From contig WHVD01000168.1 in NCBI GenBank assembly GCA_015178975.1, positions 1 to 64,000 on the forward strand: a stretch of DNA of 64,000 nucleotides, given 5' to 3'. This document shows positions 4,218 through 60,880 of this stretch, piece by piece (positions within the stretch are counted from its first letter, which is position 1; each line of letters starts with the position of its first letter). The DNA comes from Hysterangium stoloniferum. Taxonomy: Eukaryota; Basidiomycota; Agaricomycetes; Hysterangiales; Hysterangiaceae. The position numbers were made by a program, and so were the translations under genes. The notes below the pieces were generated by a model that ran no database searches, was not told the DNA's origin, and saw nothing but the letters and a program-made list of their open reading frames with translations.

Positions 4218-6550
4218 ATGTCCACGACTGGCGGGGCATTCATTACCCGCATGCCTCGTACAGACAATGTCGAGAGCAATCGAGGTACCTTAGGACCTAC
4301 CCCCTCGTCGACTTTCTCCTTTGATGCTGAGCCAAGGGGAGATAGTGGTACTGATTGGAGTAAGCCATTAGGGCACTCTTTCGGACCGTCGTCGGAAGAA
4401 GTTGCTGCTACCATGTGGAGGCAGGAAACGTTTATGGAGGAACATAATGCAAGGAGGCTCACCCGCAAGAGAGAAAGACACACTGAGTATAGAAGTCAGC
4501 AGGAAGCTAGGGGAGCAAGAGAAGGAGTCCCCTCCAAGAGGCAGCAGCGCGAGGACAGAATACGTTTCGGAAACAGAGCTTCCGCGCCGATCCTTCCCCC
4601 CCCGGGAGAGAAATGGGCCGACTTTGCAGAGACAGATGATAGCGAGGGTGGAACGCCTTGCGTTAGAACGACAGGAGCCAAGAGCTGGAAGGAAAAGGAG
4701 GGTACCATCTTCTATGACTGGGAATTACTCCGGCATATTAAGTTGCGACGAATAATCCTTACCCGAGGGGACGGTCAAGCATTGCCCCCACGAGAAAAGG
4801 GACATCGTAGGGGACCAATCGATTTTTCCTCGGATGAGGATGAGGAGGGAGACAAGGATAGGGATGATGCGTATAGCGTCCAATATCTGGGAGAGGACTG
4901 TCACGAAGGGTTCCTCCTCCCCTCAAAAGTTCGCTTCGTAACCAGCGACACCAACCAACGACAAATGCGGAGACCATCATCCAAGGTATGGAGGGGTCAT
5001 CGCCCTAGCCAACCGTCGCAGGAATGCGAACCTTCCCCGATTCCAGTCCCATGTCTTTCGCCGATGTCGAGGCCCCCTCCCGTCCTCCATCCTGCACACC
5101 CTCCCTCAGCCCCGATTCTAGCGCCTGGTCCACCCCCTTCCCCTAAGACTATACCGGTCTCTACTCCACTTCCGCTGTCACCGGCTATCCCTCCCGACTC
5201 TCCTTATTCATATTGCGTGTCCTTAGGTAGCCCCATCCACGAGCTTTCACAAGAGCGAATGGACATCGATTTGGACCCTCTTACACCGGACATCACCGTT
5301 CCAGCGACGAGCGGAAAAGCCAAGGAGATACCGAAGGCCACCACCCCTCTCCCAGAGCGATCCCCTATTCCTATCCCCATCTCTGACAGCCCGCCTTCCC
5401 CCACCGATCCCATCTCCACCACCTTCTGGACGCGAGTAGCTGTCAATTACCCTTCCGAACAGTTCCCCGTCGGAAGGGTACTATCACAGCTAGCGCCGGT
5501 ACTCCAGCAACCGGTCCTTCAAGGGAGCTGTGAAGAGTGGTAGAAGTTCAGACCGTTCTATATACGAAGAAATGAGTAGAAGAGGAGGATATTGACCTAT
5601 TCGGTGCAATATAGGAGAAAGTGAGAGAAAGAGCACAAGATGACGAAGGAGTCAACGAGTGCGATGGTTCGAGTGGAGGCCTCGACTATTACAGTTCGAG
5701 GCCAGAAGTATTCAGTAGTTCAGATAATGCTACCTATGTGGTAGCTGACACGTTACCCTGATCACTGTTCGTAGTAGACCTAGTTTGTGTCTTACGAGTG
5801 GTGGTTCTTGGGTTAAAGTGTGTCTGAGTTCTAATTGGTGCTGAGTGCACCCACAAGTATACACAATGCTTTGAACTAATGAAATATGCAATATTCGAAG
5901 AATATGAAAGATAGAAAAATATGAATAGAATATGTAAAATATAAATGAAATAAAAGGAGTGTTTTACCACAATGATACTGTGGTAAAAGCATACTCCTCA
6001 CAGGAGCCTTAAGGGTTGTTGCGGTCTCGCTCCGTTGTCCGAGATAATGAAGGACTTCTATCTCTCCTTCGAGGATCCCGCAGAGGGGGAGAACTTTGTG
6101 CGAGCAGCTCGGGGGGTTAAACTCTCTATGTTCCGGCATATCATAGTGGAACCCCACCGTCTGCCCCCAGACTCAGCGAGTGTCCTCTCTATTGCTGGCC
6201 TTGTAGATCTACTCGAGGCCCTCGTCCTGACGCCTCCCATAGAGACCCCTATGCAGCCACAGGTTCCTGCCCCGTTACCCGCATCTTCATCTTCCCTCCC
6301 CAATGCTCCTCTTCTCGCGCAAATTTCTGCTCCCCCGATTAGTGTGCGCGCAGTCATTCGTTGCAGGGAGAAGGCTTACAGACGCTGGGCCGACTCCTTG
6401 CACAGGGATTCTAGTGATTTGGCTCGAGCGAGAATAGCCGAGTCCTTCAGAGTAAAACGGGAACGATGGGGAAACATCATTTTGGACCTAGGGGGATCCT
6501 CACAGGCAGCTTGGGGCGGCGTCCCAGACGCTCTCCGACACCTTGTATAG
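4218..6550 (+). pseudogene. Post-pol accessory ORF of family A, interrupted by solo LTR J
   Basis: An ATG at 4218 opens a frame that runs into the J solo LTR and stops at 5541-5543. If the LTR and one copy of its GGAGC duplication are ignored, the frame continues without a break from 6008 to the stop at 6550, giving about 617 codons in total. I recognise no domain. The N-terminal part is charged (basic stretch RRLTRKRERH near residue 75), the middle (roughly residues 270-390) is Pro/Ser rich, and the C-terminal part has a mixed helical look with RCREKAYRRWADSL. It lies between pol and the polypurine tract, where simple Gypsy elements have only a short untranslated region. It could be an envelope-like or accessory protein, but no signal peptide or membrane segment is evident. 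Function unknown. Confidence 0.65.
5529..6002 (-). mobile_element. Solo LTR, family J (474 bp), with 5-bp target duplication GGAGC
   Basis: The unit starts TGTGAAGAG and ends CTCCTCACA on the plus strand, and is flanked by GGAGC at 5524-5528 and 6003-6007. A 5-bp duplication with TG...CA ends is typical of LTR retrotransposon integration. No internal region remains, so it is a recombined solo LTR. It holds a perfect 10-bp stem with a 7-base loop at 5962-5988. By its ends (TTCTTCGTATATAGAACGGT-like sequence near the 3' terminus) it is related to families A and B. Confidence 0.9.
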
Positions 6551-24562: not shown

Positions 24563-25699
24563 TGTTAAAACTGCCTCCACTGTCTCCAAGACCTTCTGGA
24601 ACCTTCTAGAACCTTCTAGAAGCTTCCAGCATGTTCCAGAGTATTTCCAGTTCATTTCCCATGACAGCTGTCAATCAGCTGTCACTGTTACGACCCGGAC
24701 AAATCCCGCCGGACTCCGGGCACTAACTCGTACGCCCCCACGCGCTACAAGCACCAATCGTCTGTTTATAGGATTTCCCGCCCGGACTCCGTTACGTCAA
24801 GACTCGTTACGTTCGACCTCATTAAGACACATATCAGTCACCGGACTTCCCCCGGACCCCGTCTCTGTCTATGTCCGTCTTCGTCCCACGCATCAGTCAC
24901 CGGACCCGCTTAGAATCCCGTCACCGCTCTAATCGAGCCCCGTTCCCATTTTAGTCAAATGACCTGTCACGATTTAGGACTCCGCTCCCGCTCCGTTTCC
25001 CGTTATGGGTTATGCTTTGTCACGATTCGGACTCCGCTCCGTTCCGTCCCGTTCCTAACACCAATTTGGTGTTTACTATTCCCGTTTTATGTTTTGCTCG
25101 TCTCGTCTCATTATTACTGGATTCGGTATGTCATGCATTCCACGGTCTATATAAACTGGCAGATGTTGTACATACAATCCAGTCAGAAAATTAGCTTAGA
25201 TTCCCCCCAGTAATCTAATACATTTTCCTCTCTAAAAACCCTACTCTCATCAGACCGCTCGCACTAGTCGGAGCCCACGGGCTCCGGCGCATCTATCTCT
25301 CTCGACTATCTCGATTCACGACTCTCGACTCACGACCTACGACTCACGACCCACGAACCCCCGCCCGGACTCCCCGGGATTCCCGTCCGCCTGTCTGAAA
25401 TTGGACAACACGATCTAGCGAGGGCGCAGCCTATAAGCTGAAGCCAAGTCCTACCGGATATCCCGCGGGTTTCTCCGGAAACCCGGCCTGAGTGTGTATC
25501 CTAACAGTCACTTTGTATTCCAGCTGTCAATCAGCTGTCAGTTTCCATTCAAGCTGTCAATCAGCTGTCACTTTTGACAGCTGACAAGCCTACTGATGTA
25601 TAACATATATAAGCTTGTAGTTAGTGACCTGAATAGTAACAACTTTCCTCAGACTTGTGTGTGTCACGTGTCACAGTAAGTCACAGGTCACATTTAACA
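24563..25699 (+). mobile_element. Solo LTR of Copia family C, itself split by LTR D1
   Basis: Outer ends TGTTAAAACTGCC and CACATTTAACA, about 311 bp once the D1 insert is left out. Flanks are CAGTC (24558-24562) and CGGTC (25700-25704), a 5-bp duplication with one change. The intact relative at 29148-29455 is the 3' LTR of a Copia element. Both copies contain repeated CAGCTGTCAA words. Confidence 0.85.
24686..25506 (+). mobile_element. Solo LTR of Gypsy family D (821 bp), duplication GTCAC
   Basis: Starts TGTTACGACCCGG and ends GTATCCTAACA, flanked by GTCAC at 24681-24685 and 25507-25511. It closely matches in reverse the two LTRs of the complete D element (31961-32795 and 39243-40082). Confidence 0.93.
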
Positions 25700-27620: not shown

Positions 27621-27654
27621 TTCGGGACCCGCCACTGCACCCACCCCTGTGCCC

Positions 27655-27946
27655 AAAAAGTCACAAAGAGTCTACATGAGTCACAAAGAGTCTATAACAG
27701 TTGCAAAGAGTCTATAACAGTTGTAACGAGTCTATAAGAGTCGCAAAAAGTCCAAAAGAGTTGCAAACAGTCCAAAAGAGTTGCAAACAGTCCAAAAGAG
27801 TTGCAAACAGTCCAAAAGAGTTGCAAACAGTCTATCAGAGTCACAAATAGTTGCAAACAATCACAAAGAGTCTAGAATAGTCACAAAGAGTCTAGAATAG
27901 TCACAAAAAATCTAGAATAGTTGCAAAAAGTCTAAAAGAGTCGCAC
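27655..27946 (+). repeat. Minisatellite with about 20-bp units
   Basis: Tandem units alternate AGTTGCAAAC and AGTCCAAAAG (or AGTCACAAAG and AGTCTATAAC), giving a 20-bp period made of two related 10-mers, about 14 units in all. The centre (27750-27830) is nearly perfect and the edges are degenerate. Confidence 0.85.
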
Positions 27947-28708
27947 TTTAGCCTCCTGAAAACTTGCAAATTGCATTGAATATTCCCGAACACTTGCCAA
28001 TTGTAATGAATCACACTGTATCTTTTCAAATATTTGCAAATCGCACTGAATTGCACTGTATCCTTTTGAATATTTGCGAATCGTGCTGAATTGCAAAACA
28101 TCAGTTCAGGGTTTCTCACCTTGAAAAACCTCTAAGAAACTCATGAAAATCATCAATTTCTTCATGATTTCACAAACAGATTTTTTGAATTTCCATAGTG
28201 TTTATGACCAAGGAAAATTTTGTTGAAATATCTAATTATTCAATGATTTTATATATAATTAAATTGTAAACTTCATCATGGTTTTCCCCTTGACAAAACA
28301 TTAAAAAAACTTTGTCTTGGCTCAAGATTTTTTCAGGCAGAGAATCATAGCTTTCACTGAATTCCCTCAGAGACAAAATTAAGTAGAAATATGTGGTTTT
28401 CAATTGATTTCTCTAGGCACATTATTACAGTTTTCATAGGATTTTGTTAGGTGGAAAAATCCTAACAAAATACAGGGTTTTCTAAAAGTTTTCTTATTCA
28501 GAAAATCCATAAAGAATAGGCTATTTCCAACAATATTTCCTCATAATTTCCTGATGCAAATTTTTAGAATTTTCAGATCCAATTTTTGGCCTCAGAAAAA
28601 CCTACTAAAACTCAGAATTTTCAAAGAGTTTTTCAATTCACAAAACACTTAGAAAATTTGGCCAAATAACAAGATTTTCTGAAGGTTTTCCAACTCCAAA
28701 AATCTTGG
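27947..28708. other. AT-rich sequence with short degenerate repeats
   Basis: A roughly 50-bp unit containing CTGTATCCTTTT and TATTTGCGAATCG is repeated two to three times at 27970-28100. The rest to 28708 is AT-rich with recurring GAAAATTTT-type words and no coding frame. It directly precedes a Copia pol fragment and may be decayed Copia internal sequence. Confidence 0.5.
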
Positions 28709-31960: not shown

Positions 31961-32795
31961 TGTTAGGATACACACTCAGGCCGGGTTTCCGGAGAAACCC
32001 GCGGGATATCCGGTAGGACTTGGCTTCAGCTTATAGGCTGCGCCCTCGCTAGATCGTGTTGTCCAATTTCAGACAGGCGGACGGGAATCCCGGGGAGTCC
32101 GGGCGGGGGTTCGTGGGTCGTGAGTCGTAGGTCGTGAGTCGAGAGTCGTGAGTCGAGAGTCGTGAATCGAGATAGTCGAGAGAGATAGATGCGCCGGAGC
32201 CCGTGGGCTCCGACTAGTGCGAGCGGTCTGATGAGAGTAGGGTTTTTAGAGAGGAAAATGTATTAGATTACTGGGGGGAATCTAAGCTAATTTTCTGACT
32301 GGATTGTATGTACAACATCTGCCAGTTTATATAGACCGTGGAATGCATGACATACCGAATCCAGTAATAATGAGACGAGACGAGCAAAACATAAAACGGG
32401 AATAGTAAACACCAAATTGGTGTTAGGAACGGGACGGAACGGAGCGGAGTCCGAATCGTGACAAAGCATAACCCATAACGGGAAACGGAGCGGGAGCGGA
32501 GTCCTAAATCGTGACAGGTCATTTGACTAAAACGGGAACGGGGCTCGATTAGAGCGGTGACGGGATTCTAAGCGGGTCCGGTGACTGATGCGTGGGACGA
32601 AGACGGACATAGACAGAGACGGGGTCCGGGGGAAGTCCGGTGACTGATATGTGTCTTAATGAGGTCGAACGTAACGAGTCTTGACGTAACGGAGTCCGGG
32701 CGGGAAATCCTATAAACAGACGATTGGTGCTTGTAGCGCGTGGGGGCGTACGAGTTAGTGCCCGGAGTCCGGCGGGATTTGTCCGGGTCGTAACA
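31961..32795 (-). repeat. 3' LTR of the family D element (835 bp)
   Basis: On the plus strand TGTTAGGATACACACTC to GGTCGTAACA. It contains a perfect 8-bp stem (CGGGTTTC/GAAACCCG, near 31982-32001), a second stem around CGGAGCCC/GGGCTCCG (about 32194-32212), and a tract of 7-10-bp CGTGAGT repeats (about 32110-32170). Confidence 0.93.
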
Positions 32796-32945
32796 GTATC
32801 CTCCCTTTATGCCGAAGTCCCAAAGAGGCTCTAGACCTAAATAAGGTTCTTGTCGGCTACGTGCATGTGTCAAAAGTCATGTCGGTTACACGTATGTGTC
32901 AAAGAGTCATGTGATCTGGAAGGTAAGGTTCAAACGCGACGAGCC

Positions 32946-32954
32946 TATATAAAA
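32946..32954 (+). promoter_or_regulatory. TATA-like box of the antisense gene
   Basis: TATATAAAA lies 52-60 bp upstream of the ATG at 33006 and is followed by an AT-rich then pyrimidine-rich leader. Its spacing fits a fungal core promoter reading opposite to the retrotransposon. Confidence 0.55.
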
Positions 32955-33005
32955 AATTGAAAAAATAGAAATTTCTTCTTCTTTATTACCCCCATCTTCG
33001 TCACT

Positions 33006-33988
33006 ATGGGACCAAAACCAACACCACGCAAACCAATGCCGACAGCAGGGCCCTCCACGGGCACTCCGTATCGGGCGCCGTGGACGGCGGCCCAATTGTT
33101 GGCGCGGCGAGAAGAGCAGCGCCAGCTTCGTGAAGCAGCAGAGAGAGAGGCGAGGGAGGCTGAGGAGGCCCTGGACAAGGAGTACCAGGAAGCATTGGCC
33201 GCGGAGGAAGAGGCCGCAAAGGAGAGGGAATGTGAGGCGGAGGAGGCTGCGCGAGTGGCCGCGGAGAACGCCCGGGTGGCTGCGGAGAAAGCCCGGTTGG
33301 CCGCGGAGAGGGCCGCCATTGTTGCGGGAAAAGTAAGTCCCAAATTCACTTGTCGATTGTTTACTGACTTGTGATCTTCAGCGCAAAGCGACAGAGGTGG
33401 AGTCCGAGTCCGAGGGGGAGCCAGAGAGCCCCCAAAAGGTAGGCCTCACGTCCATGGAATACCCGTGGAGACTGACCAACTCAACAGAAGGCAAGGAAGG
33501 CGGTGCCAGTCCGTCTTCCGACGCGGAACGAGCCGCGGTGTTCCGGTTGCAACGACCGGAACACGGAATGCAACCGAAAGGCCGGCTGGGGGCCGGGATG
33601 TTATCAATGCGCGCACCTCAAGGCGAGGTGCTCGCTTGTGCACGAGCAGGCCACGGGATCCGGGGCGCGAGACATAAGCGGGACGGACGGGTTGTCCGGG
33701 TTGGACGAGGTCCTTGGACGGATCGCCGAGGGCATCGAGGCCCAAAACGAGTTGCTCCGGAAGAGCAACAAAGTCCAAATTGTGGTGGCAAAGGAGCTGT
33801 CCGGACTCCGCGAGGAGTTTTGGAAGTTCCTGGCGGAGTATGGCGGCTATGTCTTTGAAGAGCCGCAAGTCGGGAGTTCCGAGGATGCCGGATCGGATGA
33901 GGACGGGGTTGCCGCGGAAGTCGCGGAGCTCCCAGAGGAGATAGCTGAGGAAGCAGGGAAAAAGAACAGTCCCATAAATGTAGACTGA
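33006..33988 (+). CDS. Antisense gene inside Gypsy D: coiled-coil protein with a Zn2Cys6-like cluster, three exons
   Basis: Exons 33006-33332, 33382-33438 and 33488-33988 join in frame through two 49-nt GT-AG introns to 885 bases, 294 residues. Residues about 30-109 form an Ala/Glu/Arg-rich helix (likely coiled coil). Residues 146-176 hold six cysteines spaced C-x2-C-x6-C-x9-C-x2-C-x6-C (starting CSGC, ending ARC), the spacing of fungal Zn2Cys6 clusters, though the basic residues usual after the second Cys are absent. The end is acidic. It runs against gag-pol, sits between the pol stop and the 3' LTR, and has its own TATA-like box. Introns in this orientation would not be removed from the element's genomic RNA, which would let them survive retrotransposition. 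Function unknown; a regulator or accessory protein is possible. Confidence 0.75.
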
Positions 33989-34198
33989 AAAAGTAGTGTA
34001 GAATAAAAAATAATTTGAATTATAAAAGCAAAGCGTGAAAGAAAAACATAAAAATTAAAAGTCAAAGCCAAAGTCCGCGGGGAATCCGCTTAAAGACTTG
34101 ACAAGACATGTCAGAACCTGTAAAAGCAAAGAGAGACATAGGGCGACAGGGAATAGTGAAAATGAGTCCAAACGTAACACGGGGTCCGCGGAGTGCGG

Positions 34199-37100
34199 TC
34201 AGAGAGACGATAATGGTCCAGGTTTGAGTGGGTAAGCTGTATGAAAGTCAGTAACAATTTCCGTGGCATTACCAAGTTCCGTGGCCAAAATCCATGAGGT
34301 TTCTTCATCGGTGCCCTCGTAACCCGCCCACTTGACCAAGTAAAGCAGTTTACAAGTGCGTCGACGCTTGTCAATTTTTGAATCTAAAATCTGAGAGATT
34401 TCAAACTCGGGTTCTCCGTCAATGACGACAGGAGGAGGCGGAGATTGCACGCGATCCGGGATAGTGTTAGCAGTACAAGGTTCTAGCATAGAGACATGAA
34501 ATACCGGGTGTACCGCGCACATGCTATCCGGAAGCCGTAGAGTCCAAGAAACTGAACCTACTTGTGCGATAATTTCAAAAGGACCTAAATATTTTTCAGC
34601 AAGCTTCTTTGATGGACGGGTAGTCCGGAAGAATTGAGCTTTGACATAAACACGGTCGCCAATCTTGAAGTTTGGTGGCGGGATCCGGTGTTTGTCCGCT
34701 GAATGTTGGTATTGCTCTTGGGCGGACAATATTGCAGTCCGGAGTTCCTCGTGGAGCTCGTGGAGGTCCGTGGTGAACTCTTGAGCACGAACAGAGGCGA
34801 GATTTCGTTCTGGATGTACTGTAATATTTGGATTATATCCTTTATTTGCAAAGAACGGGGAAACGCCAGTAGTGGCCGAGGGTGCATTGTTGTAAGCAAA
34901 TTCTGCAAGTGGTAACAAGGTTTTCCAATTGTCCTGTTGATAGTTGCAATATACGCGGAGGTATTGTTCCAATGTCTGGTTGACGCGTTCGGTTTGTCCG
35001 TCACCTTCCGGGTGATGTCCGGACGTGAAATGTAATGTCATGTCCAAGGATTTTCCGAGGGATCTAAAGAAGTGAGACACGAACTCTGATCCTCGATCGG
35101 AAGTCACGTGGGACGGAACTCCGTGCTTGGAAAATACGTGGATAATAAAAAGTTCCGCTAACTGCACGGACGTAATTGTATCATAAGTAGGGATGAATAT
35201 ACCTTGTTTTGAGAATCTGTCAACAACGACTAGGATAGCGGAAAAGCCTTCGGAATCCGGCAGGTGTTCAATGAAATCCATAGATATAGAATTCCACGGG
35301 TGTTCCGGTACCGGGAGTTGTTTCAAAAGGCCGTATGGCTTGTGTCGCTGAGATTTCGAGCGGGGACAAGTAGTGCAAGATTTACAATAGTGCTTAACGA
35401 ATCCACGGAGTCCGGGCCAAGTATATTCTCTTCTTATTAATGATAGAGTCTTGTTGTACCCGAAAGTGTCCTGAGAGTGGATGATCATGTTTGTATTGAA
35501 GGATCCTGAGGCGGAGGCCGTCGGAGTCCGGTACATAGATCCTATCGTCAAGTCTAATGAAACCATGTTGATCAAGAGACCACCGAGGTTGATCGGGGTC
35601 CACGGGATTGTCCAGATGAGCTTTAGTAACTGGGTCTAGCGGAATTGCCGATAGAATATCTTGATGTAGCTTTCTCGATATCCATAATGATAATTCCACG
35701 GACAATGGGATTGACGAGGAAAGTTGCGCGGACCGATGCGGTAAGTTGTTGATTCGTGAAGATAGGTTTCAGGTTGTGCGGATTTACCGTTGCATAGTCG
35801 TTGCTCCCCTCTTTAGGATAGACGTCCCATCGTCTAGTTAAAGCGTCGGGTTTGCCGCCGAGACGGCCGGGTCGAAAACGGATAATCATGTTGAAGGCGG
35901 AGAGATATTCAGACCAGCAGGCCTGCCGACGGGTCAAGAGTTTTGTGGTAGAAAAGTATTCCAGGTTTTTGTGATCTGTTACAACGTCAATAGGAGCTCC
36001 TGAACCTTCCAAATAGTGTCGCCACGCTTTGAAAGCTGAAAAGATTGCCAGAAGTTCTTTATCATGAACGTCGTAGTTGAGCTCTGCTCCGGTAAAAGTC
36101 TGGGACAGAAAAGCCACGGGGTGAACTTCTCCGTCGGAGTCCTGGATAGAGAGAATGGCTCCAAGTGCATAGTCGGAGGCGTCCGTTTCAACAATGAGCG
36201 GGAAGTCCGGTTTCCAATGCGACAGAATAGGAGCTGTGGAAAAAGAATTTTTTAAAAGATTGAAAGCTTTTTGACACTTATCGTTAAAGTTCCACGGAGT
36301 ACCCTTACGCGTAAGACGGGTAAGGGGTACCGTGATGTCGGAATATCCACGGATAAAACGTCTATAAAAATTGGCAAAGCCGAGGAAGGATTGGATATCT
36401 TTAACTTTTCGGGGTTCGGGCCAGTCTTTGATGACTTGCACTTTAGTTTCGTCCATGCGGAGTCCATCGGGTCCCATCATGAAACCTAGGTATTCCACGG
36501 AGTCCGTGTCAAAAGTACATTTTTTACCATTTGCGAATAAACCATGTTGTCTGAGCCTCCGGAGAACCTCACGGACTTGTTTGTCGTGTTCCGCGGGATT
36601 CTCGGAGTAGATAAGGATGTCGTCCAAGTAAACAATGACGCATACATCGAGCATGTCGGAGAAAATGTCGTTGATAAAACGCTGAAAAACAGACGGGGCA
36701 TTAGTGAGTCCAAAAGGGATGACCAACCACTCGAAGGCCCCATAGCGGGTTCTAAAAGTGGTTTTCCATTCATCGCCCACGGCAATCCGGACCAAATGAT
36801 AGGCATGCTTGAGATCTATTTTGGTGTAAATCCGGGCATTCCGCGGAGCATCGAGCAGGTCAGATATAAGTGGGAGTGGATATTTGTCCTTTTTGGTGAC
36901 AGCATTGAGTCCTCTAAAATCAACACATAGTCGAAGGGATCCATCCTTTTTTCTGACAAACAGAACAGGTGCTCCAAAAGGAGACTTTGAGGGTCGAATA
37001 AAACCTATGGACAAATGTTCATCCAGGAAATCACGGATTGCGGATAGTTCCGTGGACGAAAGCGGGTAAATATGTCCTAGGGGTGGCTGGGCGCCATCTT

Positions 37101-38058
37101 CAAGATCGATTTTTAAGTCGTATTCTCTGTGAGGCGGAAGCCGGTCAGCTTTTCGCTTGCTAAAAACATCCGCGAAGTCATGGTATTTCTCCGGGACGCC
37201 TTCTAGGTCAGCAGCTTGCTCAGATTCAGATACTGGGGTTGAGAAACGTCCAGTTGCTTCATCAATTTTTAAGTTGATAGTGAACGCCTGGGATCCATCC
37301 ATTTTTGAAGCCCTAATAAAAGCTGCAGCATTAATCAGAGAAATGGACGGAGGTGCCGTGGGTTCCGGGGAAGCTGTGGGTGCCGTAGGGATCACAGGAG
37401 TCCTCGAGACTGCAGGTGCCGGGAAGGCCATGGGTGCCGTGGAGGCCGAGACAGGCGCAGTTTCCTCGGTTGCCGCGGGAGTTCGGAATGTTATACTGTT
37501 AGCTATCCAGTCAATCAACGGATTGTAGCGGGTAAGCCAGTTATGTCCTAGAACCACCGAGCAACTTGAGTCTAACTGGGTCACATAGAAAGTGACCAAT
37601 TGAGATGTTCCACAAGGGAAACTGATGGGTAAATCACAAGCTTGGGTAACAACCGAATTACTTGTGCCATCGAAGAGGCGGAGAGCGACGGGATTTATCG
37701 AATAAGTTGACAAAGAATTTTTTTGCGTGAATTTTGTATCTAAAAAACAATGAGTCGAGCCGGAATCTATGAGAGCTGAAAAAACGAATTTCGGAAGCAT
37801 ATTAGACATAAGTTTAACGAAAAATGAATCAGAATGTGAAAGAGCGGATGCGTTGAGGCGAGTGAACTCTTGAATGCGCGGAGAGGCAACGCAACCCCTA
37901 ACCCGCGCGGAGTCCGCGGGGTTGCTTACTCTTTTTTCGAATCGGCAGCCGGTTTGTCCTTCGACGGGGTTTCCGTGGAGGCCTTGGCTGTTCGACCCTT
38001 TGAAGAGTTTGCTTTTGCCAGCGGACATTCCGGGACTCGATGACCAGGTTTCCCGCAC
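34199..38058 (-). pseudogene. pol: Family D pol: protease, RT, RNase H, integrase, chromodomain (two frame changes)
   Basis: The frame is open from 38058 to 35623, then shifts near 35655 and again near 35470, after which it is open to the stop at 34199. Motifs in order: protease LIDSGSTHCFL, RT LRLCVDFRGLN and the active site YLDDILIYS, RNase H ETDASDYALGAI, integrase zinc region HYCKSCTTC, core residues in SMDFIEHLP, TSDRGSEF and DGQTERVNQ, and a C-terminal chromodomain with YLVKWAGYEGTDEETSW. All catalytic residues seem intact, so the two small indels are the only evident lesions. Pol starts inside the gag frame, in the -1 frame relative to gag, overlapping it by about 130 bases. Confidence 0.93.
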
Positions 38059-39206
38059 AAGAGACAGAGGTTGTTGTCCATACGACGTTGTCTTTCTTGT
38101 GAAGTCAATTTGCCATCAGGTCCGAGTTTGCCTGAGAGGTCGGGTTTTCCGGCTTGCTTGCCGGACTGTTGACCCTTGTTGTTGTCCTTATTGTCCTTAT
38201 TGTTGTTGTTGTTGTTTGAAGACTTTTTATCGTTCTTCTTGTCGGATTGCGTGGAGTTCTGGTTGCTGGTTGACGAATTGGTGTTATTGTTTTTATTTAT
38301 TTTGTCCGCGGATGTCTCGCGGGCAACTTCCGCGCGACGTTCCCAATAACGTGCGTCCGCGTTTTGAGCTTTGAGGCGCATACGGGACAGGGTTTTTGGC
38401 TTGCCATCTTCTCCTTTTGAGACTTCGTCTTTAAGGCGGGACGGCAGACCGGCGTAGAATTGGTGGCGGAGAGCGGGATCGCCCCACTGACAACGAGCTG
38501 CAAGATTATTGAATTGGACGATGTAGTCCGTGATGCGCTGCGTGTCCTTCATACGAAGATTTGTGAGACTATTCTCGGCTTCTCCTGTCGGGTCATACGG
38601 GCCGAAGTTGGTTTCAAGCTCCTCAACAAAAGCTTCCCAATTTTCAAGCCAGAGCGGCTCTTCCTCGGTAATCCCGCTAAAAGCCGGTTCGAACCATTTC
38701 AACGCGGATCCCGACAAATATGAAAGTGCGTAGTTGACTTTTCGGGAGTCCGTGGAGAATGCAGCGGCGCGATCGCGGAAATTGAAGCGACATTGCATGA
38801 GGAAAGTAGAGAGTTTGTTTGGGTTGGAACCCGTGAAGGGTTCCGGAGCATTGACTTTTGACCGTGGAGGTTCTTGTTCCTTTCTTTTTCGTTCTTCTAG
38901 CAGGTGCGTCATGAATTTATCTATAGTACCTGCTAAAAACTCAGAAGTAGGATCCCTCGTGTTTGGTCGTTGAAAAGGCGGAGGATTTTCAGGAGGGATT
39001 TCGACACCTTTGCCCTTGTCGGGGGCCACGGAATCGTCCTCGCGCTCGGATTCGTCCAGGTCTTCCGGGATGTCTTCGATGCGGGCTTCTTCCATGGGTT
39101 CCGACTGGTTCGCAAGCGTCTGACTGGTATACAGAGTTAACGGGGAATGAAGAGTCGACGGTCCAGGCATTGATGACTGTGCGCGTGTACTTCTTCTTGG
39201 TGGCAT
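37926..39206 (-). CDS. gag: Family D gag (capsid and zinc knuckle), 426 residues
   Basis: Intact frame from ATG at 39206 to a stop at 37926. The central part has the Gypsy capsid fold signature region (ALKWFEPAFSGI, NLRMKDTQRITDYIVQFNNL). Near residues 381-394 is a CCHC zinc knuckle, CLLCGKPGHRVPEC. An Asn-rich low-complexity stretch (about residues 310-340) precedes the knuckle. It forms the particle that packages element RNA. The 5' LTR ends 37 bp upstream of the ATG. Confidence 0.93.
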   Translation of the reverse strand: MPPRRSTRAQSSMPGPSTLHSPLTLYTSQTLANQSEPMEEARIEDIPEDLDESEREDDSVAPDKGKGVEIPPENPPPFQRPNTRDPTSEFLAGTIDKFMTHLLEERKRKEQEPPRSKVNAPEPFTGSNPNKLSTFLMQCRFNFRDRAAAFSTDSRKVNYALSYLSGSALKWFEPAFSGITEEEPLWLENWEAFVEELETNFGPYDPTGEAENSLTNLRMKDTQRITDYIVQFNNLAARCQWGDPALRHQFYAGLPSRLKDEVSKGEDGKPKTLSRMRLKAQNADARYWERRAEVARETSADKINKNNNTNSSTSNQNSTQSDKKNDKKSSNNNNNNKDNKDNNKGQQSGKQAGKPDLSGKLGPDGKLTSQERQRRMDNNLCLLCGKPGHRVPECPLAKANSSKGRTAKASTETPSKDKPAADSKKE

Positions 39207-39242
39207 AATGAAAACAATCTGCGAGTATTAGTCAGAAAATAC

Positions 39243-40082
39243 TGTTAGGATACACACTCAGGCCGGGTTTCCGGAGAAACCCGCGGGATATCCGGTAGGA
39301 CTTGGCTTCAGCTTATAGGCTGCGCCCTCGCTAGATCGTGTTGTCCAATTTCAGACAGGCGGACGGGAATCCCGGGGAGTCCGGGCGGGGGTTCGTGGGT
39401 CGTGAGTCGTAGGTCGTGGGTCGTGAGTCGTAGGTCGTGAGTCGAGAGTCGTGAGTCGAGATAGTCGAGAGAGATAGATGCGCCGGAGCCCGCGGGCTCC
39501 GACTAGTGCGAGCGGTCTGATGAGAGTAGGGTTTTAGAGAGGAAAATGTATTAGATTACTGGGGGGAATCTAAGCTAATTTTCTGACTGGATTGTATGTA
39601 CAACATCTGCCAGTTTATATAGACCGTGGAATGCATGACATACCGAATCCAGTAATAATGAGACGAGACGAGCAAAACATAAAACGGGAATAGTAAACAC
39701 CAAATTGGTGTTAGGAACGGGACGGAACGGAGCGGAGTCCGAATCGTGACAAAGCATAACCCATAACGGGAAACGGAGCGGGAGCGGAGTCCTAAATCGT
39801 GACAGGTCATTTGACTAAAACGGGAATGGGGCTCGATTAGAGCGGTGACGGGATTCTAAGCGGGTCCGGTGACTGATGCGTGGGACGAAGACGGACATAG
39901 ACAGAGACGGGGTCCGGGGGAAGTCCGGTGACTGATATGTGTCTTATGAGGTCGAACGTAACGAGTCTTGACGTAACGGAGTCCGGGCGGGAAATCCTAT
40001 AAACAGACGATTGGTGCTTGTAGCGCGTGGGGGCGTACGAGTTAGTGCCCGGAGTCCAGCGGGATTTGTCCGGGTCGTAACA
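39243..40082 (-). repeat. 5' LTR of the family D element (840 bp)
   Basis: On the plus strand TGTTAGGATACAC to GGTCGTAACA. It matches the left LTR almost base for base; the main difference is a longer tandem CGTGGGT/CGTGAGT tract near 39400-39455. Confidence 0.93.
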
Positions 40083-40292
40083 GTGACCATCATAAAGACT
40101 TGACCGTTGCGCGCAGGTTATTAGGTTTTTTCCTAGTAACGAACTTACACCGGACTCCCCGGGATTCCCGTCCATCTGTTTGAAATTGGACAACACAATC
40201 TAGCGAGGGTGCAGCCTATAAGCTGAAGCCAAGTCCTACTGGATGTCCCATGGGTTTCTCCGGAGACCTGGCCTGTGTGTGTATCCTAACAC
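40083..40292 (+). repeat. Short unassigned spacer plus a reversed family D LTR fragment
   Basis: After about 65 bp of unknown sequence, 40150-40292 matches the last 140 bp of a D LTR in the opposite orientation to the adjacent 5' LTR, ending GTATCCTAACA. Its own left part is missing. Confidence 0.7.
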
Positions 40293-59434: not shown

Positions 59435-60880
59435 TTGTGGTAGGGTATGTACACGGCGGGTTTCCAGAGAAACCCGCAGAATATCCAGTAGGACTTGGCT
59501 TCAGCTTATAGGCTGTGCCCTCGTGAGATCGTGTTGTCCAATTTCAGACAGGTGGACAGGAATCCCGGGGAGTCTGGGTGGGGTTCGTGGGTAGAGGGGT
59601 TGTGGGTCGGGGGTTGTGGGTCAAGGGGTTGAGATGAATAAGAGAGATAGATGTGCCGGAGCCCATGGGCTCCAACTAGCGTGAGCAGTGTGATTCAAGT
59701 AGGAATTTAGAGCAGAAAATGTATTAGATTACTGGGGGGAATCTAAGCCGATTTTCTGACTGGATTGTATGTACAACATCTGCCAGACTATATAGACCAT
59801 GGAATGAATGACATACCAAATCCAGTAATAATGAAACAAAACTAGCAAAACATAAAATGAGAATAGTAAACACCAAATTTGGTGTTAGGAATGGGACGTA
59901 ACGGAATGGAGTCCAAATTGTGACAAATCATAAACCATGACGGGAAATAGAGTGGGAGTGGAGTCCGAATCGTGACAGGTCATTTGACTAAAATGGGAAT
60001 GGGGCTCAGTTAGAGGGGTGATGGGTTTTCCGAGCGTGGTCTGGTGACTGATGCATGGGATGAGGTCAGACATAGACAGGGACAGTGTGAGAGGTATGGC
60101 GAAATACACTCAGGAAATATAGTCGGATGAGCTCTTACTATATTCCCTTTATTATTTCTGTTTCTCTCTATTTTATTATACATCTATAATTAGTTCGATG
60201 ACCTATGTATGCGGTACATCGACTCTTGTGGGCGCATACTCATGTATTCTAGCGCCCGTAGTTAAAACTCAGACACTTTTACACCACAACCACGACTTAC
60301 CCAGACACCTGTTAGTGTCCTGTAAGTTGTGATTGGTGTATCGTCTCGACCGTCACAGACGGGCTTTAGCTATTTACTCAATCAGAGTTTCGAACTGTAC
60401 TAGTCGAAACTCAATCCTTACCTCAACCCACATGGACTACATCCACACTACTCTACTATTCAACTCTCTAGTTACTCTACTTGACACTCGAGCAGTCACC
60501 CAGAATCGCACTTAACAGTCGATTCTACTTATTTGTACTAGCTCTCTACCTTACTTTAGATAGCTACTTCTCTCTACCATATTGAACTAAGTAGTCAATA
60601 CATGTCCAGTCTGTATTAGACTTAGACAGTCAATACATCTTAGTGTCATACCTAAACGGTCGAAATTCTTCGTATATAGAACAGTTAGAACTTCCACCAC
60701 TCTTCACAGACGGAGTCCAGTGGGTATTCTGGTGACTGAACACAACGTAATGAAGTCAAACATAGACAAGTCTGACGTACGGAGTCTGGCGGGAATTCCG
60801 GTAAACTGACAATTGGTGCGTGTAGGGTGCAGGTACATATAAATTAGTGCCTGCAGTCCGGCAGGAATTCCAGTCATACC
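59435..60880 (-). mobile_element. Degenerate family D LTR (D4), split by LTR B2
   Basis: Matches the D LTR across its length in two parts (59435-60085 and 60709-60880) but with many C-to-T and G-to-A changes and unclear ends. Both D hairpins are still formed. It lies in the F gag N-terminal region. Confidence 0.8.
60086..60708 (+). mobile_element. Solo LTR of family B (B2, 623 bp), duplication GACAG/GACGG
   Basis: TGTGAGAGGTATGG to ACTCTTCACA, flanked by GACAG (60081-60085) and GACGG (60709-60713), one mismatch. It sits inside the D4 LTR. Confidence 0.9.

Follow-up and report, generated by a model that had tools for sequence, protein, structure and literature searches.

The contig WHVD01000168.1 of the ectomycorrhizal, truffle-like basidiomycete Hysterangium stoloniferum (assembly GCA_015178975.1) was analyzed over positions 1 to 64,000 (64,000 nucleotides in all, hereafter the window), which include a chromodomain Ty3/Gypsy retrotransposon that we call element D. 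Between pol and the 3' long terminal repeat (LTR) of this element sits a spliced gene on the plus strand, antisense to gag-pol. Its structure and the selection acting on it leave little doubt that a protein is made. The best explanation we can offer is that this gene encodes a self-targeted nuclear regulator of zinc-cluster type that would read inverted CGG pairs within the element, a proposal that we consider evenly poised between right and wrong.

In the window copy the gene comprises:
32946 to 32954, plus strand: TATA-like box (TATATAAAA), outside the LTR.
33006 to 33332, plus strand: exon 1, with the start codon (ATG at 33006) and an Ala/Glu/Arg-rich, coiled-coil-like region.
33333 to 33381, plus strand: intron 1, 49 nt, GTAAGT..CTGAC..CAG.
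33382 to 33438, plus strand: exon 2, a basic-acidic-basic stretch with flanks that by eye resembles a nuclear localization signal (NLS; GKRKA..SPQK/KARK).
33439 to 33487, plus strand: intron 2, 49 nt, GTAGGC..CTGAC..ACAG.
33488 to 33988, plus strand: exon 3, with the Cys6 cluster, a second helix, an acidic C-terminal part and a TGA stop.
33539 to 33631, plus strand: the cluster itself, C-x2-C-x6-C-x9-C-x2-C-x6-C.

The spliced frame encodes 294 aa, and the stop of pol lies at 34199 on the opposite strand. An earlier reading of this DNA from its sequence alone (hereafter the sequence-only reading) had proposed this model, and every detail of it proved exact, from the TATA-like box, the ATG and the two 49-nt GT-AG introns to the 294 residues, the spacing of the six cysteines and the pol stop. 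Several other GT-AG pairs also leave the frame open in the window copy, so this copy alone is insufficient to fix the introns and comparison of copies decides.

We searched 111 Mb of genome in 554 contigs for copies of the gene; 39 aligned rows, which include duplicates, represent 32 distinct loci. Intron 1 reads GTAAGT..CAG in 31 of these, the remaining copy having a deletion across it, and intron 2 reads GTA[AG]G..CAG in all 32. Intron lengths range from 47 to 72 nt and not in three-base steps, the bodies varying by nontriplet indels, and a CTGAC- or CTAAC-like branch motif is present in the introns of most copies. Exon 2 is 57 nt long at 30 of the 32 loci, the ATG is kept at 31, and the TATA-like box is kept or nearly so in 31 copies and absent in L034. 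By a strict test the whole frame is intact at 12 of 32 loci. The frames of L017, L031, L032, L033, and L036 are free of internal stops yet fail to terminate where the stop codon is aligned, and 15 of 32 loci carry premature stops or frame shifts. Judged by their CpG loss, the decayed copies are probably old insertions. The sequence-only reading had staked its gene on conservation in other copies, and the frame, the splice sites and the TATA-like box are indeed kept across loci.

The ratio of nonsynonymous to synonymous substitution rates (dN/dS), which the same reading had proposed to compute among copies, is 0.147 to 0.278 between the window copy and 16 loci, and third positions changed about two to four times as often as first or second positions. 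When substitutions were relocated at random, 0 of 1000 permutations gave a ratio of nonsynonymous to synonymous differences (Nd/Sd) as low as the real one, in each of four pairs. Exon 2 has zero to two amino-acid-changing differences in four comparisons. Four of the five alternative frames of exon 3 have dN/dS values of 1.2 to 5.1 (six comparisons); the fifth, a reverse frame that shares third positions, has values of 0.16 to 0.30 but contains five to seven stops. Sense-strand coding of the exon 3 DNA is out: the open reverse frame has a dN/dS of 1.2 to 3.3 (six comparisons) and the frame sharing third positions is stop-ridden. The integrase of the same elements has a dN/dS of 0.04 to 0.38 (seven comparisons, some covering part of the gene). 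The antisense gene is an old, selected accessory gene, and its earlier description as a real gene carried by the element is borne out by conserved splice sites, purifying selection and a recurrent antisense position. Separately, in seven element pairs the antisense gene has diverged at synonymous sites 1.6 to 4.8 times as much as integrase has (0.273 versus 0.057 in L032), which suggests an exchange of modules, a higher pace of evolution, or constraint at the synonymous sites of pol.

The antisense position recurs genome-wide. Integrase copies were scored for 93 of 6060 candidates, and at least 72 of the 93 have a match to the antisense gene on the opposite strand, 205 to 265 nt beyond the integrase end. 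Whether homologues lie antisense inside Gypsy elements, as the sequence-only reading had asked, is thereby answered in the affirmative. For 21 of the 93 there is no antisense match among the matches listed, and at least one of these (C32) lies at a contig end. Among 20 loci with long flanks (L019 to L038), all except L038 carry the gene antisense beside a Gypsy integrase, at a distance of 195 to 224 nt in 18 loci and about 940 nt in L023. The gene has the form of an accessory antisense open reading frame (aORF): an open frame opposite gag-pol that follows pol, precedes the 3' LTR and occurs in most scored copies of the family.

Beyond F1, the family of element D, the gene occurs in two related families. 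F1b comprises the right half of L026, the left end of L029, and L048, with 34 to 52% identity in matched pieces. F2 comprises the left part of L036 and L039 to L047; full proteins align at 30% identity over 183 columns (BLASTP, E 0.022). The identity between F1 and F2 is weak, and the claim of homology therefore rests on the common exon-intron architecture and slot. The intact F2 copy, L047, encodes 292 aa and keeps both phase-0 intron positions (slash in ..GK/RKA.. and ..SPK/K..), with introns of 50 and 56 nt. It has a TATA box before the gene, a cluster of the form C-x2-C-x6-C-x10-C-x2-C-x6-C with a basic flank, and the same slot behind the chromodomain. Integrase adjoins the gene in seven of the nine F2 loci; in L043 there is a distant piece only, and in L042 no match to integrase. 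Counted exon by exon, there are 201 matches to the F1 product in the genome, and 150 matches were scored for each of the F2 and F1b queries, the F1b set overlapping that of F1. An alignment search outside the genome returned three proteins, two of them gene-model fragments from Hysterangium stoloniferum (76% identity) and one a 144-aa metagenome protein (31%). The Hysterangium stoloniferum gene model P0001 matches the window at 99% over residues 65 to 201. A protein search with residues 130 to 262 of the product found no homologue, and IMG/VR yielded no relative among 32 pattern matches. Two side observations concern these families. Upstream of the TATA box, at 32798 to 32945, is a TGTGTCAAA..TCATGTGA-like block, variants of which are seen by eye in F1, F1b, and F2 promoters; it is possibly a shared upstream element. 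L048 (G000:C5:272450-273750) is nearly CpG-free, with an observed/expected ratio of 0.02, an extreme case of CpG erosion of repeats in this fungus.

The six cysteines of the predicted protein are invariant in five aligned rows, and the decayed copy L036 has lost one. Their spacing fits the pattern of fungal Zn2Cys6 clusters, C-x2-C-x6-C-x5-12-C-x2-C-x6-8-C. It is the second half of the Pfam Zn_clus model that the first Cys triad matches in the F1 product and L048, and its first half that the second triad matches in P0003, a hint that the halves are exchanged in the antisense protein. The best Pfam match of the product is DUF5539, at 15 bits under a cut-off of 25. Nothing significant was found in PDB, where the single sequence reached a best E of 0.14 (talin) and a profile search 0.18 (influenza HA2 coil), with Ppr1 at E 5.3. 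An AlphaFold model of exon 3 alone, from four aligned rows, has a mean predicted local distance difference test score (pLDDT) of 53.7 and a predicted helix at exon-3 residues 67 to 118 with pLDDT of about 80.

A candidate target of this protein lies in the element itself:
31962 to 39206 (7,245 nt, 3' LTR to gag end), unstranded: dispersed inverted CGG pairs, 21 CGG-N3-CCG and 23 CGG-N5-CCG.

Relative to 300 order-3 Markov sequences, with expected numbers of 4.4 for N3 and 4.2 for N5 and null maxima of 12 and 10, both classes are enriched about five-fold. For every other inverted spacer between 0 and 12 the count in element D falls within the null range. The gag, reverse transcriptase (RT), and integrase frames contain 13 N3 sites versus 2.2 expected and 17 N5 sites versus 3.0 (null maxima 6 and 11), as judged by 100 shuffles that hold the protein, codon usage, and nearly all dinucleotides, with the gag-RT overlap counted twice. 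Each of the three reading frames contains such sites, both in integrase and in RT. The idea that CGG pairs are LTR-only operators was rejected, gag-pol being enriched too. The top hexamer in the sense frames is CCACGG/CCGTGG, with 19 occurrences versus 3.1 in synonymous shuffles. The Pdr1-type octamer is TCCGYGGA; it was dropped as the motif, CCRYGG being unenriched in three F2 loci (0, 0, and 5 occurrences) and 18 of 26 sense-frame sites sharing one codon frame.

Motif tests used a subset of the fetched loci that differed by test, and counts for F1b and F2 allow one CpG-decay step. Both peaks appear in F1b, in L026 (N3 24 versus 8.6, N5 22 versus 8.5) and in an F1b-type piece of L029 (N3 17 versus 6.7, N5 18 versus 6.3). 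For F2, N3 is the tallest class in eight of nine loci and tied in L042, at 1.5 to 3.1 times the mean of other classes, and N5 stands at 0.5 to 1.5 times that mean. In a strict order-3 test of five F2 loci, with 300 sequences each, the null reached the observed N3 value 0, 0, 0, 0, and 1 times, and 0 to 15 times of 300 when any spacing was allowed. The related families replicate the result in part, since they have integrase sequence in common. No comparable peak was found in a 92 kb control (45.6 kb of flanking sequence plus 46.9 kb from the window), and positions 1 to 4000 of L038, another Gypsy family, contain one to six sites per class. Four of five other window regions have no N3/N5 excess. 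The region at 25 to 31 kb exceeded the null (N3 3, N5 4); five of its seven sites lie in the LTR copy at 24684 to 25505 or at most 150 nt before its end, so this excess is not independent.

We propose that a TATA promoter of its own, immediately internal to the 3' LTR, drives transcription of the antisense gene toward pol, and that the transcript loses both introns by splicing. As the retrotransposon life cycle implies, retrotransposition would copy its introns unspliced, because they lie on the strand antisense to the genomic RNA. The product would be a nuclear dimer consisting of an N-terminal coil, the NLS-like segment, the six-Cys zinc cluster, a second coil, and an acidic tail. Because dimers of Zn2Cys6 proteins typically recognize two CGG triplets a set distance apart, we propose that the element's sites are read by the antisense protein. 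Inverted CGG pairs are the typical targets of Gal4/Ppr1/Pdr1-type factors. The likeness to these Zn(II)2Cys6 factors lies in the Cys spacing, the neighbouring coil, and the inverted CGG pairs at fixed spacing. The difference is that their cluster is N-terminal, whereas that of the element D product is mid-protein and under the Pfam cut-off; the fungal_trans domain is not listed for the product in the Pfam scan. Binding would extend across the whole element, LTR and coding alike, and the product would act on its own element as a self-recognizing regulator. Its likeliest role would be to keep element chromatin open against host CpG attack and silencing. The CpG observed/expected ratio is 1.04 to 1.37 across element D versus 0.71 in the rest of the window, 0.28 to 0.52 over several loci with old copies, and 0.02 in L048. 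These ratios show marked host erosion of CpG, and under such pressure it would be of advantage to the element to encode a protein that is addressed to the element itself and keeps its chromatin accessible. We infer expression, zinc binding, DNA binding, and self-targeting of the product from sequence; least certain are the sign and the step of regulation.

A model for such a role is VANC, which keeps the chromatin of the VANDAL transposons of Arabidopsis accessible and whose motifs are dense in their own family, rare elsewhere, and family-specific (available portions of PMC5735166). Element D would resemble this system in having an element-encoded protein and a short motif dense in its own family, although the motif is a candidate in the case of element D; spaced CGG pairs are dense in F1, F1b, and F2 pieces relative to the 92 kb control, as a self-motif of VANC type would be. 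VANDAL is not a retrotransposon, VANC binding is proven, and homology of VANC to the element D product is not shown. A broader proposal can be made tentatively, and we think it rather doubtful: that a clade of fungal chromoviruses has a spliced antisense gene for a zinc-cluster protein reading CGG pairs of family-specific spacing (N3 and N5 in F1 and F1b, N3 in F2) along the entire element, synonymous sites included, for self-addressed anti-silencing or regulation independent of plant VANC.

A number of observations weigh against a self-targeted zinc-cluster regulator. The coiled-coil, Zn2Cys6-like protein of the sequence-only reading stands as to its Cys6 form beside coil-like regions and falls short at the Pfam cut-off: of the five proteins scanned, three have Zn_clus (PF00172) scores of 7.3, 15.8, and 7.2 bits, below the gathering score of 21, and for the F2 protein and P0001 the Pfam scan does not list the domain. 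AlphaFold gave the cluster no confident fold in the exon 3 model. The motifs of VANC are mainly noncoding tandem repeats, as far as the available portions of PMC5735166 describe them, and sites in element D lie also in gag-pol. Inverted N7 pairs number 10 versus 4.0 expected, near the top of the null range. Direct CGG pairs stood out under a dinucleotide null, and those at N4, N6, and N8 (21, 26, and 22 versus 8.8, 8.4, and 8.8 in order-3 Markov sequences) are enriched 2.4- to 3.1-fold, which slightly lowers the chances of the broader proposal; their enrichment is smaller than that of inverted N3 and N5, and such pairs may arise secondarily where a CCGG or CCGCGG core has an N3 or N5 partner. 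The N3 peak of L042 is slight (1.5-fold, tied with N2), an F1-like piece at 6100 to 9300 of L036 has N5 and lacks N3, and N5 is the tallest class in the window control (104 versus 70 to 95 for others). Some integrase sites may be common to the families by descent. Motif bases at non-CpG third positions have 12 changes versus 29.0 expected, in a test whose controls scatter 0- to 5-fold. Finally, the motif emerged from an exploratory series in which CGG counts were followed by k-mers and these by spacings; this inflates nominal significance, and we therefore treat the spaced-CGG result as a strong lead.

Under every functional reading the antisense mRNA and the genomic RNA are complementary, owing to the convergent layout, and the alternatives differ in what the gene would do. 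The nuclear protein could instead repress the element or limit its copy number, in an HBZ-like or self-regulatory manner, with the CGG sites as operators. We judge this unlikely, although gene anatomy would be identical and the tail-to-tail overlap with genomic RNA would also permit RNA interference. According to the available part of PMC11963269, the retroviral antisense protein HBZ is located in the nucleus and has a critical part in the life cycle of the virus. The sites span the whole element beyond the LTR, however, and a repressor needs fewer; activation and repression would both fit the present results. Similarly improbable is a function in a replication step (packaging, nuclear import of cDNA, or integration targeting), the CGG sites belonging to a host Zn2Cys6 factor or having another cause. 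An NLS-like stretch and coiled coils suit many roles and direct CGG pairs are enriched too, but the spaced sites accompany gene-carrying families and the 92 kb of other DNA has no comparable peak.

It is very improbable that the antisense RNA alone matters, as a double-stranded RNA trigger, with the frame incidental. Antisense transcripts of LTR elements can be noncoding (available portions of PMC7264820), but a dN/dS near 1 and free indels would then be predicted; instead, the spliced protein is under purifying selection and the splice sites are conserved. We give almost no credence to a single capture of a host gene by one copy, or to a misread sense-strand frame: the 202-codon open stretch on the reverse strand over exon 3 is what could be cited in favor, and the idea is refuted by the 201 F1 matches, the 150 scored for each of F2 and F1b, and the reverse-frame dN/dS of 1.2 to 3.3.

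Knowledge of antisense genes in Gypsy elements goes back to the 1990s, and the function of these genes is still called unknown in the available portions of PMC11963269 and PMC7264820. These same portions describe a TRP28 domain, predicted to be DNA-binding, in the antisense ORFs of Retand, and a nuclear product and own promoter for gene23 of Grande. The plant genes of Retand, Grande (gene23), and RIRE2 are antisense genes of Gypsy elements, as is that of element D. Retand belongs to a non-chromovirus lineage, however, whereas element D is a chromovirus, and TRP28 (PF04195) is not listed for the element D product in a Pfam scan to E 10. The word "intron" is absent from the main text of both papers, and their available portions report no self-motif for Retand, gene23, or RIRE2, whereas element D has a candidate one. 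Among fungi, brtn is an additional antisense gene in Boty (BcGypsy1) of Botrytis cinerea and Sclerotinia (available portions of PMC7264820, PMC8365987, and PMC4227169). Compared by these descriptions only, Boty is like element D in being a fungal Gypsy with a chromodomain gag-pol and an extra antisense gene. The sequence-only reading had known of no fungal case with introns and a zinc cluster; brtn supplies the precedent for an antisense gene. Beyond this Botrytis gene, a search for a spliced antisense gene described in a fungus, or for a zinc-cluster gene described in a retrotransposon, yielded none in the literature covered, which took in few subscription papers.

Antisense accessory genes themselves are thus already known; new here is a basidiomycete, spliced, zinc-cluster-type antisense gene with a candidate self-motif. 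A candidate DNA target inside the same element makes the function of an antisense gene testable by one binding assay. If true, the proposal would mean that self-addressed anti-silencing, so far a feature of plant transposons, reaches to a fungal retrotransposon as well. Both introns also serve as a strand marker, as RNA spliced there could come only from the antisense promoter.

The host element has the following parts:
31962 to 40084, minus strand: element D, chromodomain Ty3/Gypsy.
31962 to 32797, minus strand: 3' LTR, with TGTTAG..TAACA ends and 98.2% identity to 39244-40084.
39244 to 40084, minus strand: 5' LTR.
37926 to 39206, minus strand: gag, 426 aa (Pfam Retrotrans_gag, E 3e-14; zinc knuckle weak).
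35623 to 38058, minus strand: protease, RT, and RNase H frame (Pfam RVP_2, RVT_1, RT_RNaseH).
34199 to 35575, minus strand: integrase with C-terminal chromodomain (Pfam rve, Integrase_H2C2, SH3_Tf2-1, Chromo).

The order gag, protease, RT, RNase H, integrase, the C-terminal chromodomain, and the LTRs are those of a Ty3/Gypsy chromovirus. RT-RNase H and integrase are two separate open frames in element D (34199 to 38058). Many sibling copies have a single open frame of 1,304 codons that takes in integrase, so the pol of element D looks interrupted. No matching 5-bp flanks were seen by eye around the element. A reversed 141-nt LTR piece adjoins the 5' LTR at 40150 to 40290, and extra LTR copies lie at 24684 to 25505 (98.2%, reverse-oriented) and 59457 to 60083 (84%). 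A degenerate array of 10- and 20-nt repeats of the AGAGTCnnAA type occupies 27636 to 27955.
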